From: an uncultured Chitinophagales bacterium | GTDB lineage: Bacteria > Bacteroidota > Bacteroidia > Chitinophagales > JAHDHT01 | Assembly: GCA_938023075.1 (NCBI GenBank) | Contig: CALHDG010000144.1 | Location: forward strand, 1-40,482 | Direction of reading: 5' to 3' | DNA: 40,482 nt | Part shown: piece after piece, positions 951-40,441 of the stretch | Layout of the letters: each line of letters opens with the position of its first letter | How positions within the stretch are numbered: the first letter of the stretch is position 1 | Notes under the pieces: model-generated | Database searches by the model: none | The model's input: the letters and a program-made list of their open reading frames with translations, nothing else | Told to the model about the DNA's origin: nothing | Made by a program: the position numbers and the translations under genes

Positions 951-2918
951 CTAATTACTTTCTGGAAACTGCAAAACAAATTCGGAACCTTCATTATAGT
1001 TTGAATGCACTTTTATTTTACCACTTAACTCCATCATTATGTTTTTGCAAGTAAATAAGCCCAAGCCTGTACCAAAGCTTTCTTTTTCATCTCCTCTATT
1101 ATTTTTTTTGAATATCTCAGTTAATAGATCTTGTTTAATGCCTTTCCCATTATCTTTTACACTTACTAATAAATTGTTATTCTGTTTGGCAGAAAGTAAT
1201 TGTAATTGTAATTCTCTTGAGGGATGCTTATACGTAATTGCATTGCTAATTAAATTCTGAAACAATTGAACTAATTTACTTTCCTTACCCTTAACTATGG
1301 GCAATTTACTTTTTTCTATTAATACATTGTTACGATCAATATCAAACTTTAGTTTATCCAACACTTTACTTACTACCTTGTTTAAATCTACTGTATTAAT
1401 GGCTTCTATTTTATTATTGGAGGCATCAATTAAAATATCGTTAACCAGTTTGGTTAGATCTTTACTTAAAGTAGCAATAAGATTTAACGACTTTGCAATT
1501 TGCTTACTATTGGTTTCATATTGTTTTATAGCAATATCAGCAAAACCTGAAATTGTTCTTAAAGGTGCTTTTATATCATGGGAAACTATATGAGCAAAGG
1601 ATTGTAATTTTTCAATAGATTGTTCTAAAAGGTTTTGTGTATTTAACAAATCAATATTTTGTGAATTGATTTTCTCGTTCAATAATTTTAAAGCTTTTTG
1701 TGACTTGGTTCGCTGTTTTAACAACTTCAAAATTAGGGCAACAAAAAAACCTAAAACTGTCAACCCAATTAATAAAAACAAAATAATGAGGGTTGATCGG
1801 TAATTTTTTTTAGTCAATTCTTCATTATGAGTTTCAAATTTAATCATTTCAGTAAATGCTTTTTGGCTATAATCGGGTGTATTCAATAAAAAAGAACTTA
1901 CTTTTGAATGATATTCGAGAGCTTCGTCTTTAGTATTAAATTTAAAGTTTGCCGTAATTAAATTATGTCCACTTCGTAAAGTATTTAATTTTTTTTTGGC
2001 AATAGCAGTTTCTACACTTTTTTTGGCATATTCAAAAGCATCCTCTCTCAAATTTTTGTACAAAAAATATTTCGCACATTTATAATACAGCTCGGCCAGT
2101 TGAATACCAAAATTGTTATACTCGGTCAAATAAATGGCGTTTAAATAAAAATCATAACTTTTTTCTAAATTAACACTTGCAAATACATCGCCATTAAATT
2201 TATAATAATAAGCTAAACCTCTTTCGTACTTAGGTGCCGACCAAGTATTAAATGCAAGTTCGGCATAATGCAATACAGAATCAATTAAAGCATTTTGATC
2301 ATGTTTTGATCTTGCTATATTTAAATAAGCATATCCCAAACTTATATTTGCACTATACTCTATCGCTAATTTAGCAGCCAATTTCAAATTCTTTTCTGCT
2401 TTATCATATTGTTTTAGGTTCATAAACAATAAGCCCTTATTGTTATAAACATCAATTAATTCGTTTGCTGACATTGATTCTTTCGCTAAGCGTTCAGTTT
2501 CTTCAAAACGAATCTTTGCTGAAACATAATCCTTTTCCAAAATATCCACCAAACCCAGTAGTTTCAAATTTCTAATCAATGCATTAGTGGGTTCGTTTAT
2601 CGATAAAATTTTATTGGCTTCGTTTAAAAAAACATAAGCAGAGTCGCTATTAGACTTTATATATTGTCTAAACCCTAAATAATTAGCTGATAAAGCTCTT
2701 AAATAATTGTCGTTACTTACTTTAGCGTAACAATAAAGTTGCTTGGCTTGTGCGGAAAAGTTATATTCAGAATTAAATTCTCCAGATAAATTCTTAGTAA
2801 ATACAGTTAAACTATCATCTGAGATAACAAAATTTACGGCATTGCAAATATTGCCTGTGGCAAAACAGCAACTCAGACTTATCCATAAATTTAAGACCAC
2901 ACAAATATTTTTTTTCAA
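951..2918 (-). CDS. TPR-containing membrane sensor histidine kinase
   Basis: This 655-residue protein has an N-terminal signal-like segment, a long periplasmic region of TPR-like helical repeats (about 60-340), one transmembrane helix (about 374-399), a coiled-coil linker, then a HisKA dimerisation domain and an HATPase domain. The phospho-acceptor is His447 in the H-box SHDIKAPLR. The ATP-binding lid shows N-box N555/N559, DNGKGI (589-594) and GTGLGL (616-621). This is the usual Bacteroidota architecture in which periplasmic TPRs sense a signal and the kinase passes phosphate to a response regulator. No receiver gene is adjacent, so it is an orphan kinase and its partner is unknown. A good promoter lies just upstream (2958-2985). 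Decayed mobile DNA surrounds it, but the frame is intact. Confidence 0.9.
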   Translation of the reverse strand: MKKNICVVLNLWISLSCCFATGNICNAVNFVISDDSLTVFTKNLSGEFNSEYNFSAQAKQLYCYAKVSNDNYLRALSANYLGFRQYIKSNSDSAYVFLNEANKILSINEPTNALIRNLKLLGLVDILEKDYVSAKIRFEETERLAKESMSANELIDVYNNKGLLFMNLKQYDKAEKNLKLAAKLAIEYSANISLGYAYLNIARSKHDQNALIDSVLHYAELAFNTWSAPKYERGLAYYYKFNGDVFASVNLEKSYDFYLNAIYLTEYNNFGIQLAELYYKCAKYFLYKNLREDAFEYAKKSVETAIAKKKLNTLRSGHNLITANFKFNTKDEALEYHSKVSSFLLNTPDYSQKAFTEMIKFETHNEELTKKNYRSTLIILFLLIGLTVLGFFVALILKLLKQRTKSQKALKLLNEKINSQNIDLLNTQNLLEQSIEKLQSFAHIVSHDIKAPLRTISGFADIAIKQYETNSKQIAKSLNLIATLSKDLTKLVNDILIDASNNKIEAINTVDLNKVVSKVLDKLKFDIDRNNVLIEKSKLPIVKGKESKLVQLFQNLISNAITYKHPSRELQLQLLSAKQNNNLLVSVKDNGKGIKQDLLTEIFKKNNRGDEKESFGTGLGLFTCKNIMMELSGKIKVHSNYNEGSEFVLQFPESN

Positions 2919-2957
2919 ATCTAATAAAAGTTTAGAGTATAAATATTAATTTTATAA

Positions 2958-2985
2958 CAAATATAACGCCAATGTTATATTGCAA
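2958..2985 (-). promoter_or_regulatory. Bacteroidota promoter of the histidine kinase
   Basis: On the minus strand a TTG (2985-2983) is followed after 17 bases by TATATTTG (2965-2958), a perfect TAnnTTTG. The kinase start codon is about 40 bases downstream. Confidence 0.55.
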
Positions 2986-3154
2986 CAGTAAATTGGTCAA
3001 TCTACTTGGTTAAGGATATATGGTTTTTGTTTTACGTAAAAACAACAATTAACGTTGCAACAAATAGTTACTTTATATTTACTTATGTAAGCACCGTAAT
3101 TGACTACAAAAGAGACTTTTATTAAAGAACAATTCCAATCTTAAATTCCACTCT

Positions 3155-3177
3155 CGGCAAGATTTGTAATCTCGCCG
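3155..3177. repeat. REP-like imperfect hairpin
   Basis: CGGCAAGATT-TGT-AATCTCGCCG forms a 10-bp stem with one mismatch. It lies 100 bases before a second RayT relic, so it may be a REP relic of that family. Confidence 0.45.
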
Positions 3178-3278
3178 CATTTTCAATACAACCACAAAAG
3201 CAAGCATTTGTAATACGACTATATTACCACTACCAATCTTTATATTAGTGACATTTGCCTATTGATTGCTAAACCATT

Positions 3279-3385
3279 ATGGCAGAAAGCTATAAAATAA
3301 ATGATGAAAAGGATTATACTTTATTACCATTACAGCAGATGTAAAGATGTTATTATAGATGCTTTTCTTGCGAGTAGGCGGCTAT
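3279..3385 (+). pseudogene. N-terminal remnant of a second RayT transposase
   Basis: The ATG at 3279 begins MAESYKINDEK, a typical RayT N-terminus. The following GLYFITITADV is one frame away, and a further shift gives KDVIIDAF, matching the family order. At least two frameshifts and the loss of most of the gene show advanced decay. The right border is approximate. Confidence 0.6.
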
Positions 3386-3415
3386 GGCATATACACAATG
3401 TTTTGCAATCGCCTG

Positions 3416-3772
3416 TTAGGCAATTTGTAAATATGCTTCTTCCAATTTAACATTAAAATTTATCTCGGCTTTCAAGGCTTTCAACACTTTCAAAATAGTA
3501 TCAATGGTCGCACTATTGGCACTACGGAATGATGAAAAAATAAATGCTCAAATTTTAGCAAAGAGATTTTTTGATATACAAATAAAACGCAGGCTTAGTG
3601 GTGCTAAGCCGAGTATTTTTAATGAAGTAGATCGGAAAATCTCAAAGGTAAAAATGGACAGTTATTTTTGAATTATTCCTACTTTCTAATTTTGAAATTT
3701 GAGTTTGCTGCACACCACAAGTTCGTTAAATTGTTCTTGTGTTAGTTTCCTTTCTTTTCGTACGAGCAATTT
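3416..3772 (-). pseudogene. XRE-family helix-turn-helix regulator (antitoxin-like), broken by a frameshift and an inserted element
   Basis: On the minus strand VRKERKLTQEQFNELV (frame 1) continues, after a missing base, as GVQQTQISKLES (frame 2), then a 154-bp insertion (3526-3679). After it the same frame 2 resumes as SANSATIDTILKVLKALKAE and ends at TAA (3418-3416). This is a Cro/CI-type HTH as found in HigA-like antitoxins. Deleting the insertion plus one copy of the flanking TAC joins ...KLES to SANSAT in frame, so the insertion hit a coding gene. A stop near 3773 and the frameshift make it non-functional today. No toxin partner is visible. Confidence 0.7.
3526..3679. mobile_element. 154-bp fold-back (palindromic) MITE-like element inside the XRE gene
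   Basis: The ends are inverted: GGAAT-n-AT-nn-AAAAATAA on both sides (15 of 18 positions match). Similarity between the left half and the reverse complement of the right half continues inward (GAGATTTT...GAT-n-TAC) to a perfect central hairpin GGCTTAG-TGGTG-CTAAGCC (3592-3610). TAC at 3523-3525 and 3680-3682 is a 3-bp target duplication. No transposase is encoded; it would be moved in trans by an unidentified element. Confidence 0.7.
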
Positions 3773-3787
3773 TTAAAATAAGAAACA

Positions 3788-4039
3788 AGTAATTGTGCCG
3801 AAGCTTTGTTGTATAAAGGGGTCTCTGAGTTAGCCATCAATTGGAATGAAAAGGCAAAATTGACCTTTCAACAAGTAGCCGAAAATCATTCATCTTATAA
3901 AGATATCGCTAATTGGTATTTAGCTTTGTTTTATCTTAAAAAAGACGATAAGGAAATGGCTACAACTTATTTGAAGCGTATCACTAAAAACGATCCAGCA
4001 TATTATGAAAAAGCGTAACAGTTAAGAAAGGAATTTTAA
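3788..4039 (+). pseudogene. C-terminal fragment of a TPR anti-sigma-like protein
   Basis: An open frame without a credible start reads ...GVSELAINWNEKAKLTF and NWYLALFYLKKDDKEMA, then reaches TAA at 4016-4018. The family clearly continues with QLRKEF to a second stop at 4037-4039, so the first stop is a nonsense mutation. The pattern matches the C-terminal TPR end of the protein encoded at 23131-23919 (KWYLALAYLKNNDVENA ... LLKEL). It is probably a relic of another sigma/anti-sigma locus. The left edge abuts the XRE relic. Confidence 0.55.
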
Positions 4040-10935: not shown

Positions 10936-11886
10936 TTATTCACTCCATAAATCTTCTTGCGCCCAATTTTCAGGGAAACCCATATCAGCAAGATTGATGG
11001 TATGTTTATATTTTGGTATCTCTATCAACTTGAAAAGATTATCCTTAAAATTGTTATAGGGGTTTACGAATTTGAGCATATAAGCAATCATACAAAGTGC
11101 AGCGTATAGTTTCAGTTTTTTATCATTTGTAATATTTGCTTGATTATCATTTTCCCACCTGCTTACCCATTTATCTTTAGGGCTTTTCATCCATACAGGA
11201 GCGATATTTAAACCTATGTTCCATAAGCGTTGATGATGAGCGCAAACATTTCTAACATAAACCAAACATTCTACCCACGATGTAAGTACTGAATGATGCA
11301 AGCCAAAACTATTACTAATGGGTATAATTTGCTTTTGCTCATTTAGATTTTTTAAAATAGTGGAAATGGTTCTGAATGTTGCCACTTCAAACATTTTCCA
11401 TGCAGGTGGCATGCTGTTGGTATACTTTTTTTTATATTTTGTAAGATACTCTTGCTTTGATTCATCATAATTTTTAACCAGCTTATTTAAGGTTGATGAA
11501 TAGTTGGGAATTGTATTAAAGTGTTCTTTATCTAAATACCAAAATCCCGAATTATTTTTAATAGATAGATGATAAATAAGCTGCGTTCTAATTGCCACTT
11601 CAAGTTGTTCTATGGCATTAAAAGTAAGGGTTCTTAATTCGCTGTCAAATTGGTATAACCTGAATACATCAATAAATTTTGAACCTGTTTTAAATTGTTC
11701 ATCATCTTTTGGTTCTTTTAGCATAAAATGCCAGTAGTTGCTTAATCGGTTATAGCTTACATACGTTAGTATTTTAACGGCTCTTTGTTCATCTACAAAA
11801 TGTAAGCCCCGTTGTTTTAGTAGTTCTACTTGTTCTTGAAAAATTTTTGGCTTTTTGGCGTAAGTTTCTTTGTTTGCAGAAGTCAT
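10936..11886 (-). CDS. AbiF/AbiD (Abi_2) HEPN-domain abortive-infection protein
   Basis: The 316 residues belong to the Abi_2 family of phage-defence proteins. The N-terminal part reads ILTYVSYNRLSNYW and LYQFDSELRTL; a HEPN RNase motif R212-NVCA-H217 (R-x4-H) lies within VRNVCAHHQRLWN. Known family role: these proteins limit phage spread by RNA cleavage after infection. The start at 11886 (MTSANKETY) matches the truncated copy; an in-frame ATG 30 codons upstream lies inside the leader RNA. Only two bases separate the start from an eight-base T-run, leaving no room for a ribosome site after the terminator. A perfect promoter lies at 11947-11976, and the RNA it makes is described separately. 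Regulation probably uses that RNA. Confidence 0.88.
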   Translation of the reverse strand: MTSANKETYAKKPKIFQEQVELLKQRGLHFVDEQRAVKILTYVSYNRLSNYWHFMLKEPKDDEQFKTGSKFIDVFRLYQFDSELRTLTFNAIEQLEVAIRTQLIYHLSIKNNSGFWYLDKEHFNTIPNYSSTLNKLVKNYDESKQEYLTKYKKKYTNSMPPAWKMFEVATFRTISTILKNLNEQKQIIPISNSFGLHHSVLTSWVECLVYVRNVCAHHQRLWNIGLNIAPVWMKSPKDKWVSRWENDNQANITNDKKLKLYAALCMIAYMLKFVNPYNNFKDNLFKLIEIPKYKHTINLADMGFPENWAQEDLWSE

Positions 11887-11888
11887 AT

Positions 11889-11940
11889 AAAAAAAAGACC
11901 GCCCAAAAGTGCACATCGTTGAGAGGTCCGGGCGATACTG
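11889..11940 (-). ncRNA. AbiF leader RNA (abiF-type motif)
   Basis: Downstream of the promoter, CGGACCTCTC-A-ACGATGTGCAC, then TTTTGGGCGGTC and T8 form a short structured RNA. GACC pairs with GGTC next to the T-run, giving a terminator-like end exactly before the abi start codon; CGCCC/GGGCG also pair here. A second copy at 8679-8727 keeps the core but not CGCCC, so the GACC/GGT(C/T) stem is the better-supported one. Computational surveys describe an abiF RNA upstream of such genes; identity is to be checked with its model. Confidence 0.7.
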
Positions 11941-11946
11941 TTGATA

Positions 11947-11976
11947 CAAAGGTAACATTAACTTGTAGAAAAACAA
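11947..11976 (-). promoter_or_regulatory. Promoter of the AbiF leader RNA and gene
   Basis: TTG (11976-11974), exactly 19 bases, then TACCTTTG (11954-11947): a full match to the Bacteroidota consensus TTG-N19-TAnnTTTG. Transcription would begin near 11940. Confidence 0.75.
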
Positions 11977-15197: not shown

Positions 15198-18065
15198 TTA
15201 TGGTTTAATCTTGTTTTTACTCAAGTAATATCGAGCAAAAAACAACATGACAAAAAAAGCAAGACAGCCGATTAAACTGTATAACCAAATAGGATGGTTA
15301 GACTTAAAATCTAAGGCATCTAAATTACCAACGGCTACCAAACCTGCCCAATACAATGGATGCGATTTTTCAGAAGTCTCTAAAAAATGGAGTTTAGCTT
15401 GTTGCAAAGCCACATCTTTAGTCGCTCCCTCTTTCAAATTTTTAAAGAAACCATCCAATACTTTAGTTGAGGAAACATCAGGAATGCTCCATAAACTCAT
15501 GACCAAACTGGGGCAACCGGCATAAGTAAAGGCACGCGACAAACTCATAACCCCCTCCCCTTTTTGAACTTTGCCTGTGCCTGTGTTGCAAGCTCCCAAT
15601 ACTGCTAAATTTGTTTGCAATTTGGTATTGTACAGGTCAGCTGCATAGAGTTTGTTTAAGCTATCAGTTTTAGTAAACACCAAATGAGAATTTAATGGCA
15701 AAGTATCATTAACCTTGCCGTGCATGGCAAAGTGTAAAATGTTATACGCATTTTGATCATTTAAAAAAGCAGATTTCGTAGCCGTATCGGCTACATAAGA
15801 TTTGCCTTTAAATAGCCCGGCTATATGTTGTACTTGTTCTCGGGCAATGGGTAAATCGGCATCTGCTTCTTCAAAGCCATGTTGAGAAGCGTAACCCCCA
15901 TAGGCAATATGGTTTTGTAATGGTTCAGTATTTAAATTATTGATCCATAAGTTAGCCGAGTAGGCATAACCAATAGCCTTTTGCCTAATAAGATACGGTA
16001 AATTACTAAAGGTAAGTTTATTGGTAGTATCCGGTTTTTCATAAAACAACACATCAAAAGGGATGTAGTTCAATTCGGCATCCGGTATAATTTGAAGATG
16101 GGTAATTTGTTTATCTAAATCATCCAAAGCTTGTTGTATTAGAGTTTCATAGAAAAAAGTAGCTCGTTCGGTAAATCGATTCACCGTAGCAACACTATGT
16201 AAATCATCACCTAAACTTACACCATTAAAAATACCCACAAAATCATCAATGCGTTTATCCCAATCCTCGGATTTTTCAATTTGGTACAACTTAGTTTTAT
16301 TTTTTTGGATAGACAATATATAAAGTTGATTAGAACCTACAAAATATTCTAAAATAGCTGTTTCATCATTCAATTGACTTTGTACCTCAGCTAAAGTCGT
16401 TTCTTTTTGTTTATATTTAAACTGATAGTAGTCGGGATATTTTTCCTCCAAATTTCTAATTAAGCGATGGTAGTTTTCTTTGCTTACAAACAGGTCATTT
16501 TCTAATTCATTGATTTCGCTTTCTAACTCTTCCCTTTCTTCTTCAGAGGAGGACACTTCAGATTTGGCTTCATTTAATCTTCTTTCATAAAAAGATATGG
16601 CGAGTTTTATATCTTGTTCTTGTTCTCTTAAACTATCGGGTAAATTGGCAAATAGTAAAGCATCGTTTTCATTCATTAATTGTGCTAAAACGGTTGCCTT
16701 ATTTTTTTCTATTAAGCGGAAAGTGGCTTGGGCATTAAATTGGTTGATGGATTGTTTGGTGTAGGCTATTTCTAAGGCTTGTTCTATAAATGGAACAATT
16801 TTGTTCGCTTGTAATAGTCTTGAATTTTCTGTTGAAACGTCAAGTTGCAAATGAGTATGGAAATCCAATAGGGTTTGGTAGGTTTGTTCAGCTAAACTGA
16901 GATAATTTTCATCACCGTCTTTTTTATAATATTCAAAGGCAGCAATTGCTTTTAAATCAAGTACTTCTATTAAATAACGTTTCGAATAAATGTAAAAAGA
17001 ATTACTTAATTGAGGGTTTTTGAAAATATCATCATCTCTAAATTTATCTGTTAGATTCATTATGGCTTTTTGGTAACAAATTAGACTAGTATCTAGCTCA
17101 TCAATTTCAACAAAATTGCTTCCAAGATTTCTGTAATTACTAACATAGTCAAAATCAAATTCTTGATGATTGTTGTACTGTTGCTTAAAATATAAAGACT
17201 CACCTAACAAATTTATTGCTTTTGTATAATTTTCTAAATAGTGATTAACATTGGCAATATTATTTAATGCGAAGGCTTTTTTTTGTATATTCTCTGAATT
17301 ATCAGCTAATTTTGTATATTTCTTATAATATTTAATTGCATTGTTAAAATCTTCCTTCCAAAAATAAGCTATTGCTAATTCATTGATTGCAACCATTTGA
17401 GTAGTTATTTTTTCACTTTTTTCAATAGCTTGTTTTGCATGATAAATAGCCTCATCATAATAAAGTGAGTCTTCGGCAGCTGTAATAATTTCAGAAATCC
17501 TACTATGAATTCTTGCTTTATCATTTTCACTGGTCTTGATTTTAAGAGCCTGTTCTGCAATAGTCTTAGCTCTATGGTGTTCACCTGTTTTTGACAAGAC
17601 TTCAGCGAGATAACGAAGCAATTGTGCTTCGTAATTAGGTTCTTTGTTTTCATAAGCTTTGATTGCTAATTCAAAAAAAATAACCGATCTGCTATATTCG
17701 TTCAATAGTTTATAACAAATACCTATATTTCTTAACGACTTCCAATATAAACCATCATCATATTTTTTTCTTAAGTCAGCCGCTAATTGATTATATTTAA
17801 TTGCTTTTACATAATCTCTGTCTCTTTTAAATAGTTGTAACCCAATTTGATGATAGCAGCATGCTAATAGTGCTGTGTCTTTAATAGTATTTGATTGTAT
17901 AGTTTCTAATAAAAAATCAATATCAACTTTAGACGCAGTACACTTATACGATTTAATATCGTCATTGTAGTAAGATTGAGGTAAACTTTGAGCAAAAGAA
18001 GGAGAGTTTAATAGGTTTGCTATCTGAAAATAAAATAGAAATTGACAAATCTGGTTTTTAAGCAT
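15198..18065 (-). CDS. TPR-CHAT protease
   Basis: The 955 residues start with a signal-like segment. TPR-type repeats cover about 50-430 (AKTIAEQALKIK, AIKYYKKYTKLAD and AINLLGESLYF units), followed by a charged coiled coil. The CHAT domain (caspase family, clan CD) is at about 640-905: the catalytic His is H782 in LHFAMHG, the catalytic Cys is C826 in LGACNTGTG, and SLWSIPD and YWAGLVAVG follow. A C-terminal transmembrane helix (about 925-945) ends in basic residues. TPR-CHAT proteins are peptidases activated by partner binding, like Csx29 of type III-E CRISPR; the substrate here is unknown. It is a single gene with its -7 box at 18104-18111, next to the split subtilisin gene. Confidence 0.9.
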   Translation of the reverse strand: MLKNQICQFLFYFQIANLLNSPSFAQSLPQSYYNDDIKSYKCTASKVDIDFLLETIQSNTIKDTALLACCYHQIGLQLFKRDRDYVKAIKYNQLAADLRKKYDDGLYWKSLRNIGICYKLLNEYSRSVIFFELAIKAYENKEPNYEAQLLRYLAEVLSKTGEHHRAKTIAEQALKIKTSENDKARIHSRISEIITAAEDSLYYDEAIYHAKQAIEKSEKITTQMVAINELAIAYFWKEDFNNAIKYYKKYTKLADNSENIQKKAFALNNIANVNHYLENYTKAINLLGESLYFKQQYNNHQEFDFDYVSNYRNLGSNFVEIDELDTSLICYQKAIMNLTDKFRDDDIFKNPQLSNSFYIYSKRYLIEVLDLKAIAAFEYYKKDGDENYLSLAEQTYQTLLDFHTHLQLDVSTENSRLLQANKIVPFIEQALEIAYTKQSINQFNAQATFRLIEKNKATVLAQLMNENDALLFANLPDSLREQEQDIKLAISFYERRLNEAKSEVSSSEEEREELESEINELENDLFVSKENYHRLIRNLEEKYPDYYQFKYKQKETTLAEVQSQLNDETAILEYFVGSNQLYILSIQKNKTKLYQIEKSEDWDKRIDDFVGIFNGVSLGDDLHSVATVNRFTERATFFYETLIQQALDDLDKQITHLQIIPDAELNYIPFDVLFYEKPDTTNKLTFSNLPYLIRQKAIGYAYSANLWINNLNTEPLQNHIAYGGYASQHGFEEADADLPIAREQVQHIAGLFKGKSYVADTATKSAFLNDQNAYNILHFAMHGKVNDTLPLNSHLVFTKTDSLNKLYAADLYNTKLQTNLAVLGACNTGTGKVQKGEGVMSLSRAFTYAGCPSLVMSLWSIPDVSSTKVLDGFFKNLKEGATKDVALQQAKLHFLETSEKSHPLYWAGLVAVGNLDALDFKSNHPIWLYSLIGCLAFFVMLFFARYYLSKNKIKP

Positions 18066-24163: not shown

Positions 24164-25600
24164 TTAATTCTTAAACAGCTCGTCCATCATCACTTCATTT
24201 TGAACTAACAAATTAGCATATTTATTTTTCTCAACACCATAAGTGGTAATCATCGTTAAAAAAATCGATTTTTTAGTTTGAGTAGCGATTTTAAAAGTTG
24301 AAATTTTCGATCTTAGTTTTTCCGCATAAGCCTTGTCAATAGTAAAAGTATCTAATGAAAATTTACACTCGCCCACGTTAATAACCTGATCACGTCTATT
24401 AATTAACAAATCAATTTGAGCAGCTTTTCCACCGCTTTTGGCTTGCCAAACTACATTGTTTGATTGTATGCCACTAATACCAAGGGCTTGCTTAATTTGC
24501 CAAACGTGATCTAAGCAAATTTGTTCAAAAGCAAAACCTTGCCAAGCCCTATGTGCAGGATTATCAATAAGGTTAGTCCAACTATTTTTACCCTTATAAT
24601 GTCCTTTTTTGATAAATCTGAAATAGAAAGCAGTATAATAATCCGATAAGCGATAAAGCGTATTTTTTTGTTTGCTATCTAATGAAGTATACGAATGGAT
24701 AAAGCCACTTTCTTCTAAATCGCTTAAAACTTTAGTTAATGTACCGCCCGAAGAAATACCCGATAACTTGATAATTTGATTGCGTTGTAAACCTTTATTT
24801 TTAGTAGAAAGTGCTTCCACAACTTTTTCATAAATATCATATCTGCGAAAAAGAGAACGGTACAAATTAAAAAACTCATTTTTCAATAAACCGGCTTTGT
24901 CAAATAATAATTCCTGCATATTTTGAGTAGCACTTAAATGGGGTTGAACAGCTTCTAAATAATAGGGGATACCACCTAACGCCATATACAATTGAAGAAT
25001 TTGGTAGCGATCTAACACACAGTTTTTAGAAACCAGCATGGCTTCCGTTTCATTTAGGGTAAAGGCTTCTAATTTTATTTTTTGGGTAATGCGGTTATGT
25101 AAGCCACCGCTGTTGTTAATTAAATTATTCACCATCCACGAAGCTGCGGAGCCGCATACAATCAGCAATACATTTTTTCGATTGCTTGCCCAGCTATTCC
25201 AAAAATGTTCTAAGCCCATCATAAAATCGGATGCTTGCGTATCAAACCATGGAAGCTCATCAAAAAATATAACGATCTTTTTTTTATTTCGTTTTTGGTT
25301 AAGATGCCGAATTAAACGTTGAAAAGCAATTAGCCAATTTTTCGATTCATCTTCAAAAACAAGATTTGATTGTTCGCTTAAAGTAGTATCAAAATTAAAC
25401 AGTTGTTGTTGGGTATTGGCATTAGCTAAAGCCGATATTTGAAAATCGAACCTATATTTAAAATATTCTCTTATCAAAAAAGTTTTGCCAACTCTTCTTC
25501 TGCCGTAAACGGTTAAAAATTCAGATTTCTTGCTTCTTAAAATTCTGTTTAAGGTAGTTATCTCTTTCTTTCTTCCAATAATGCCTTTGTCCGTTGCCAT
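24164..25600 (-). CDS. AAA+ ATPase with C-terminal PD-(D/E)XK nuclease-like domain (DUF234-type)
   Basis: The 478 residues have Walker A GRRRVGKT (33-40), Walker B IVIFFDELPWFD, a sensor-like CGSAASWM and a winged-helix region (GLQRNQIIKLSGISSGGTL). The C-terminal part holds the nuclease-like pattern AQIDLLINRRDQVINVGECKF, with D, E and K in the usual order. This is the archaeal-type ATPase/DUF234 family, often multi-copy in Bacteroidota; the function is not established. The start at 25600 (MATDKGIIGRK) is better than the one 6 codons upstream because the family begins there and it lies just after the promoter and a palindromic array. A TACTTTTG box ends a few bases before the start, so the mRNA is probably leaderless. 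Confidence 0.8.
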   Translation of the reverse strand: MATDKGIIGRKKEITTLNRILRSKKSEFLTVYGRRRVGKTFLIREYFKYRFDFQISALANANTQQQLFNFDTTLSEQSNLVFEDESKNWLIAFQRLIRHLNQKRNKKKIVIFFDELPWFDTQASDFMMGLEHFWNSWASNRKNVLLIVCGSAASWMVNNLINNSGGLHNRITQKIKLEAFTLNETEAMLVSKNCVLDRYQILQLYMALGGIPYYLEAVQPHLSATQNMQELLFDKAGLLKNEFFNLYRSLFRRYDIYEKVVEALSTKNKGLQRNQIIKLSGISSGGTLTKVLSDLEESGFIHSYTSLDSKQKNTLYRLSDYYTAFYFRFIKKGHYKGKNSWTNLIDNPAHRAWQGFAFEQICLDHVWQIKQALGISGIQSNNVVWQAKSGGKAAQIDLLINRRDQVINVGECKFSLDTFTIDKAYAEKLRSKISTFKIATQTKKSIFLTMITTYGVEKNKYANLLVQNEVMMDELFKN

Positions 25601-25603
25601 TAT

Positions 25604-25742
25604 CAGCCAAAAGTACATAAAAAATAGTAGTTTTGGCTGCTAAATTTATTTTTTGCAGCCAGAAATAAGAATTCTAACCTAAATTGGCTGTATAAATACT
25701 TTTTTACAGCCAGAAATGTATATTTACAAGTAGTTTTGGCTG
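25604..25742 (-). repeat. Three palindromic CAGCCA...TGGCTG units with 16-bp spacers over the ATPase promoter
   Basis: Units at 25604-25639 (36 bp), 25656-25690 (35 bp) and 25707-25742 (36 bp) each begin CAGCCA and end TGGCTG. Both spacers are exactly 16 bp and T/A-rich. Two units share CAGCCAAAACTACT. The right arm of the unit nearest the gene overlaps TACTTTTG, a perfect -7 box. A protein that bridges the arms would block the promoter, so autoregulation is likely. Confidence 0.75.
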
Positions 25743-39161: not shown

Positions 39162-40441
39162 GGTTCTACAAGAATTTGTGTGAATAGAGCCTTAATTTAG
39201 CGCTATGTTACCAAATTATGATAAAGAATTTTTTCAGTTAGCTTTAGGATTTCCTTCTCCATGGGAGGTACAATCGGTAGAGCTAAACAAAGCCAAAGAA
39301 TCAGTACATATTTATATATCTTATAACTAAACAACCTATCTTACAGATGGTGGAGAGGAGCTAAAGGTATATGATTATAGAAAAGAACGGGTTTGGCAGC
39401 ACCTTCCTATCCTTCAATTTACATGTTATATTCATTGCAGAATACCGAGAGTAAAACTGCAGACAGGTGGGATCAAAAGTATTGCTGTCCCCTGGGCATC
39501 AAGTTATGATAGTTATACCTATCAATTCAATAATTATGTGATAGATATATTGAAGGCTTGCCATAATCAAACCCAAACGGCACATTTAGCCAAAACTACT
39601 TTTTATATAGCCAATACCATTATGCACAAGTCGGTAGAGTTAGGTTTGTCAAGGCGGGTATTAGAACAACCTGTAAAACGATTAAGCATTGATGAAAAAT
39701 CAATTGCTAAGGGGCATCAGTATGCCAGTATTTTAGTAGATGTAGATGAGAAAAGAGTGCTGGACATCTGTAAAGGCAGAGACAAAAAATCAGTAAAACA
39801 GTTGATTAACAATACTTTACAAGGCGATTTAATCAATCAAGTAGAAGTAATTTGTATGGATATGTGGGAAGCCTTTATGTCAGCCTGTAAAGAATTGATG
39901 CCCAAAGCTGACATCACACACGATAAATTTCACATTGTACAATATCTAAACAAAGCAGTAGATACTTGCCGAAAAAAAGAAGTAGCCACCAACAAACTAC
40001 TCAAAAACAGTAAGTATACTTTACTCAAAAATTACAAAAACAGAAGCGACCAACAACAAGCCCATTTTAGTGAAATTATGGATAGTAATTTATACACCGC
40101 ACAAGCTTGGTTAATGGCTAATCAGTTTAAAGACACCGTACTGAATTGCCATGACATCATTGAAGCAGCAGCCTATTTTGATATGTGGACAGACAAAGCC
40201 GAAGAATTGAAAGATATCAAGCCCATCACTCAATTATCAAAAACACTCAATAAACATAAAACAGGAATTTTAAATTACGTTAAACACAAAATAACCAATG
40301 CACTCATTGAAAGAGTAAATGGCATGATTCAAAATATTAAGAATATTGGAAGAGGTTACAGAACCTTTGAAAACTTAAGATCTGCCATTCTATTCTTCAA
40401 TGGTAAACTCGACCTCTATTCACACAAATTCTTGTAGAACC
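39162..40441 (+). mobile_element. ISL3-family insertion sequence (1280 bp)
   Basis: Perfect 28-bp inverted repeats begin GGTTCTACAAGAATTTGTGT (39162-39189 and 40414-40441). TATTTTAA at 39154-39161 and 40442-40449 is an 8-bp target duplication, as expected for ISL3. The transposase fills the inside. Intact ends and duplication point to a recent insertion. Confidence 0.85.
39205..40437 (+). pseudogene. ISL3-family transposase, interrupted by a single stop
   Basis: From ATG 39205 the frame runs to 40437 (410 codons), the normal ISL3 length, but TAA at 39328-39330 stops it after residue 41 (...YISYN stop TTYLTD...). The downstream part has the ISL3 catalytic region: LSIDEKSIAKGHQYASILVD, then ICMDMWEAFMSACKE, HDKFHIVQYLNKAVD and the C-terminal ERVNGMIQNIKNIGRGYRTFEN (DDE residues Asp, Asp, Glu). 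An internal GTG at 39538 could start a shortened protein without the N-terminal binding region. Its stop codon lies inside the right inverted repeat. Confidence 0.8.

Follow-up and report, generated by a model that had tools for sequence, protein, structure and literature searches.

PDC-S27 is a PADLOC phage-defence candidate (PMC12988326), whose anti-phage activity is reported as unvalidated. Among defence candidates still to be validated it is one of the most abundant, with 3,503 archaeal and 4,562 bacterial detections in one survey (PMC12988326), and in the sections of that paper bearing on it, no cognate palindrome array or self-specific operator is described. In the RptR system of defence islands (PMC12255303), a protein encoded at the locus recognises repeats over a defence promoter and represses that promoter; RptR is a small dedicated regulator, and its TAGCTA site is constant. 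Toxin-antitoxin and restriction-controller systems also repress a defence-like gene via palindromes in its own promoter, and there a separate antitoxin or C protein does the binding. Lastly, a similar AAA+/STAND core with a winged helix is found in Orc1/Cdc6 on origin DNA (2QBY) and in STAND/NLR ATPases (7DFV, CED-4). Orc1/Cdc6 is also known to bind repeated origin sites.

Here we describe a PDC-S27 gene with a regular palindrome array over its promoter. It lies in a window, the whole stretch of DNA analysed, of 40,482 nucleotides from an uncultured Chitinophagales bacterium (contig CALHDG010000144.1). Compared with RptR, regulation here seems to fall to the effector itself, and the site varies from one paralogue to the next. 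Whereas toxin-antitoxin and restriction-controller systems use a separate binding protein, one protein seems to hold both roles in PDC-S27. Unlike Orc1/Cdc6 and STAND/NLR ATPases, the gene has no replication or cell-death gene context, and the structural matches barely reach its nuclease domain. No earlier report of these arrays was found in the literature searched (on PDC-S27, on palindromes with DUF234, and on winged helices acting at their own promoter). The gene and the parts of its product are as follows.

24164-25600, minus strand: PDC-S27 ATPase gene, 478 aa, with an ATPase_2/STAND-like ATPase, a winged helix and a C-terminal PD-(D/E)XK domain.
24641-24847, minus strand: winged-helix domain, residues about 252-320, from AlphaFold secondary structure and covariation.
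24731-24751, minus strand: recognition-helix residues S284, T287 and K290, which covary with operator bases 14 and 17.
24665-24667, minus strand: wing residue K312, which covaries with operator base 12.
24362-24412, minus strand: nuclease motif D397 ... E411-x-K413.

Membership in PDC-S27 rests on a full-length match to PADLOC profile PDLC04984 (residues 6-476, E 1.8e-194) and on the fusion of an ATPase to a PD-(D/E)XK domain with intact motifs, a domain make-up that agrees with the one published for the family (PMC12988326). Among aligned homologues, 98-100% retain K39/T40 and D114/E115 (Walker A and B) as well as D397, E411 and K413 of the nuclease motif. Pfam gives ATPase_2, and DUF234 only as a sub-threshold match. 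NCBIfam and PDB sequence searches with the window's protein returned no match. The AlphaFold model (mean pLDDT 81; 63-65 for the other four models) contains a helix–turn–helix, with the recognition helix at 286-298 and wing strands at 301-304 and 315-318. For residues 2-329, the best fold matches (VIA) were two archaeal ATPases, 2QEN from P. abyssi (Z 21.7, rmsd 3.1, 302 aligned) and 2FNA, SSO1545 (Z 21.0, rmsd 2.9, 299 aligned). These differ from the window's protein in being chains of about 350 residues, so that the alignment covers the ATPase and winged-helix part only. NLR/CED-4 (e.g. 7DFV) and Orc1/Cdc6 (2QBY) ATPases matched more weakly, with Z of 14-16.

The array consists of three palindromic units of 36, 35 and 36 bp, separated by gaps of 16 bp, with dyads 51.5 bp apart.

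25604-25639, minus strand: operator unit 1, gene-proximal, CAGCCAAAAGTACATAAAAAATAGTAGTTTTGGCTG, with half-sites CAGCCAAAAC / CAGCCAAAAG and dyad at 25621.5; it overlaps the promoter.
25656-25690, no strand assigned: operator unit 2, middle and weakest, CAGCCAGAAATAAGAATTCTAACCTAAATTGGCTG, dyad at 25673.
25707-25742, no strand assigned: operator unit 3, distal, CAGCCAGAAATGTATATTTACAAGTAGTTTTGGCTG, dyad at 25724.5.
25608-25615, minus strand: -7 box TACTTTTG, of the Bacteroidota TAnnTTTG type, within the gene-proximal arm of unit 1.

With the family palindrome model described below, trained without the window's gene, the two outer units were the best two sites of the 40-kb window (scores 23.2 and 19.4), the next reaching 9.1. 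The array is thus not a chance occurrence. The middle unit fell below the model threshold and was identified from its arms and exact phasing. The exact array pattern had no match in IMG/VR.

Most of what an earlier, sequence-only reading had claimed about this region held: the unit lengths, the gaps, a period of 51-52 bp, and a -7 box in the last, gene-proximal arm, a position which proved to be conserved across the family. The start codon, placed by that reading four bases past the array, is the ATG at 25600-25598, which leaves three bases in between. Another ATG at 25618, given in an ORF-finder listing, was rejected as the start; it falls inside the array and is unused by homologues. That the array is not CRISPR also held. 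A CRISPR array has direct repeats and unique spacers of roughly 25-40 bp, whereas these units are palindromic and their gaps measure 16 bp.

The reading had proposed to look for the same spacing upstream of homologues, and the outcome was strongly positive, nearly all of them having it. Inverted repeats scoring at least 11 were found upstream of 90% of 115 relatives, against 3% for shuffled sequences and none for control stretches inside genes. The palindrome model placed at least one unit before 109 of the 118 training relatives and at least two before 72, leaving nine genes without a unit above threshold; the best unit score averaged 18.6, compared with -1.3 in shuffles, whose maximum was 7.2. 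A second set of 109 relatives, fetched after the rules were set and not used to build the model, had a unit in 105 cases (shuffles, 2/109). In both sets the dyad period was mostly 51-55 bp, about 52 bp. This family layout is therefore shown, and it is constant within the unit as well: an outer TTATA, a variable core, an inner AAAnYTA and a T-rich centre.

The core is what varies. Among 103 genes, 46 different six-base cores were found. The window's genome holds eight full-length copies of the gene, the other seven being 40-51% identical to the window's protein, and its eight arrays have eight different cores. Whether paralogues within one genome avoid a common core received mixed support: identical pairs numbered two where matched protein distance predicted 7.1 (P 0.02), yet permuting the labels gave P 0.45, so that such avoidance is at most suggestive. 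Distribution of the gene is patchy, with relatives in 57/395 genomes of the class and 89/398 of the order, and up to 37 candidate copies in a single genome.

By eye and by repeat search, similar units were also seen before relatives on an Emticicia plasmid, a Butyrivibrio plasmid and a Wolbachia phage. In the last case (L300, phage WO, MN180249), two ACCGCGG...CCGCGGT-like units at 2390-2485 stand in front of a PDC-S27 relative at 2489-3952, located between minor-capsid and head-decoration genes. Related WO phages that lack the gene still have a single similar palindrome there (L303, 2286-2318).

If the protein reads its own array, the variable bases should follow its residues. A partial Mantel scan over 472 residues, corrected for overall protein distance, peaked at residues 276-292, the best single columns being S284 (r 0.246) and T287 (0.161). 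A blind scan of 472 residues against 14 operator positions (6,608 pairs, half-sites in register) gave as its five best pairs S284-14 (z 13.8), K290-17 (8.9), S284-13 (8.6), K312-12 (7.6) and T287-17 (7.1). All five lie in the winged helix, in the recognition helix and wing, and the best pair elsewhere reached 5.0. The spacing of residues 284, 287 and 290 puts them on one helix face. With Ser or Thr at 284, base 14 was C in 50/52 genes; with Asn it was T in 20/25, and with Asp, G in 13/17. For base 17, Arg290 went with G (27/31), Thr287 with A (25/29) and Asp287 with C (9/9). The window's protein (S284, T287, K290) agrees with its own array (C14, A17).

Such covariation could reflect common descent. 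As a phylogenetic control, residues 268-322 were left out of the tree on which independent pairs were counted. The counts were 14:0 for 290R with G17, 11:0 for 290K with A17, 8.6:0 for 284N with T14, 7.4:0 for 284D with G13, 6.9:0 for 312R with T12 and 7.8:1 for 287T with A17. These six were the top six of 13,728 phylogenetic tests, and all fall in the winged helix. The count runs over all branches; a starred-branch version (treekit) had too few pairs for significance.

On the held-out relatives, the residue-284 rule was right on base 14 in 90 of 102 cases, while copying the nearest training protein, or giving always the commonest base, was right in 55. When the nearest training protein was less than 60% identical, the rule scored 54/59 versus 28/59 for the nearest neighbour, and 38/43 versus 24/43 once an over-represented genus was left out. 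Arg290 predicted G17 in 26/29 and Thr287 predicted A17 in 25/27. However, the Lys290 to A rule was weak (16/35), and the preset base-17 rule was poor overall (43/70; nearest neighbour, 36/70). Base 17 therefore depends on at least two residues, and the code is solved only in part. The link between operator letters and recognition helix is shown, and supports the proposal of the sequence-only reading that the ATPase is the reader. That the ATPase recognises its own operator is very likely; it is inferred from sequence alone, by covariation and held-out prediction, with no biochemistry.

The overlap with the promoter is likewise shown. In the right arm of gene-proximal units, T occupies +6 in 76% and A occupies +7 in 93%, whereas the mirror positions of the left arm are far less constant (31% and 54%). 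A TAnnTTTG box is present in 36/87 proximal versus 8/98 distal units (P about 1e-7). From this conserved TA and this enrichment, we conclude that the operator arm incorporates the -7 box. A location in the central AT loop was considered and dropped, since in the orientation-specific logo it is the gene-proximal arm that carries the conserved TA. The ATG lies mostly 28-36 nt past the proximal dyad. The locus thus shows one mark of an autoregulated operator: the cognate site lies within the promoter of the same gene and covers one of its core elements.

We then consider where else the site occurs. In the 6.1-Mb genome, the only zero-mismatch matches to the window's unit pattern were the two outer units; with up to three mismatches, matches came at about the control rate, the motif exceeding it only at its own promoter. 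Of three paralogues of this genome searched in this way, the window's gene among them, each had its palindrome only at its own promoter. Confined in this way to their own genes, they do not qualify as a dispersed repeat of the REP/RAYT type, and self-control is favoured over a regulon or a dispersed repeat.

The best explanation is probably autogenous control through a self-specific operator, most likely by repression; both binding and repression are inferred, there being no binding or expression data, so that the autoregulation suggested by the sequence-only reading is supported to that extent. The ATPase-nuclease would bind its own array via the winged helix, with one recognition helix per half-site and two half-sites per palindrome. 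As units recur every five helical turns, several protomers may stack on one face of the DNA, although formation of such an oligomer is inferred. With the -7 box inside the gene-proximal arm, RNA polymerase should be shut out whenever the protein is bound, which would keep the gene low (negative autoregulation). The preference for repression as the outcome is itself an inference, and a bound unit might instead activate. The array may also hold the enzyme on DNA until the ATPase is triggered; its release on infection and a role in defence are hypotheses. Since every paralogue pairs its own helix with its own operator, several copies per cell may be regulated separately. An operator of this kind, self-specific and decodable in part, is a direct handle on PDC-S27 gene control and offers a route to inducing these genes in the laboratory. 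The family also provides a natural collection of repressor–operator pairs, apparently separate from one another, whose recognition code can be read.

A bolder reading, which we hold to be improbable, makes PDC-S27 a DNA-anchored immune sensor, a STAND-like ATPase-nuclease docked by its winged helix on a private array. The array would then be both operator and resting place, a trigger would strip the protein off, freeing the nuclease and inducing the gene at once, and a short amino-acid-to-base code would keep many sensors in one cell apart. The other suggestion of the sequence-only reading, that the array is a recognition site for the nuclease, is not excluded.

Simple autorepression at the promoter neither explains nor needs a further set of units. 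A cognate unit was found just after the stop codon in 32/151 genes (about 21%), its dyad mostly 20-40 bp downstream. In these units the half-sites match but most of the loops have diverged, a pattern suggestive of selection rather than recent duplication. They may serve in looping, read-through control or mobility. Loci L089, L081 and L087 are examples in which the post-stop unit bears the gene's own half-sites.

Among rival explanations, the one that survives best, though we consider it unlikely, is a mobile or selfish gene: the ATPase-nuclease would move, copy or protect a unit delimited by these palindromes, and its control of the promoter would be secondary. In its favour are the post-stop units, the patchy distribution with up to 37 candidate copies in one genome, and the Wolbachia phage WO relative lying between head genes at a site where phages without the gene keep a palindrome. 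Against it, 79% of the genes have no downstream unit, the tested paralogue palindromes are not found genome-wide, the paralogues are too diverged (40-51% identity) to be recent copies, no transposase or target duplication was seen, and the proximal unit incorporates the -7 box. Still less probable is that the bound ATPase recruits RNA polymerase (positive autoregulation) or assembles an active complex on the array (a DNA scaffold). Extra units in phase upstream of the promoter, and a fold related to oligomerising STAND/Orc ATPases, speak for such a role; but the -7 box, and probably the transcription start as well, lie under the proximal unit. It is very unlikely that the palindromes, whose form would allow either, are bound by an unrelated regulator or act as an RNA hairpin or attenuator, as the letters of the arms track the recognition helix of the ATPase itself and as the transcript, inferred to begin in or after the right arm because the -7 box sits there, could not form the hairpin.

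Some further arrangements were seen around these genes. At locus L039, the PDC-S27 gene has a CRISPR-like array next to it, directly upstream of the operator array, with a repeat of about GTCAGAGAATGTGCTAATGAAAAGTTGCACTGAGAC. Two divergent PDC-S27 paralogues stand tail to tail at short distance on contigs C23 and C50 of genome G1087, hence on two contigs of this one genome, and on contig C5 of G946. Elsewhere in the window, reading of the sequence pointed to an ORF resembling Abi_2-type abortive-infection proteins (10936-11976), a large TPR protein, possibly an effector, whose C-terminus is CHAT-like, hence caspase-like (15198-18065), and an ORF resembling an ISL3-type transposase (39538-40437).
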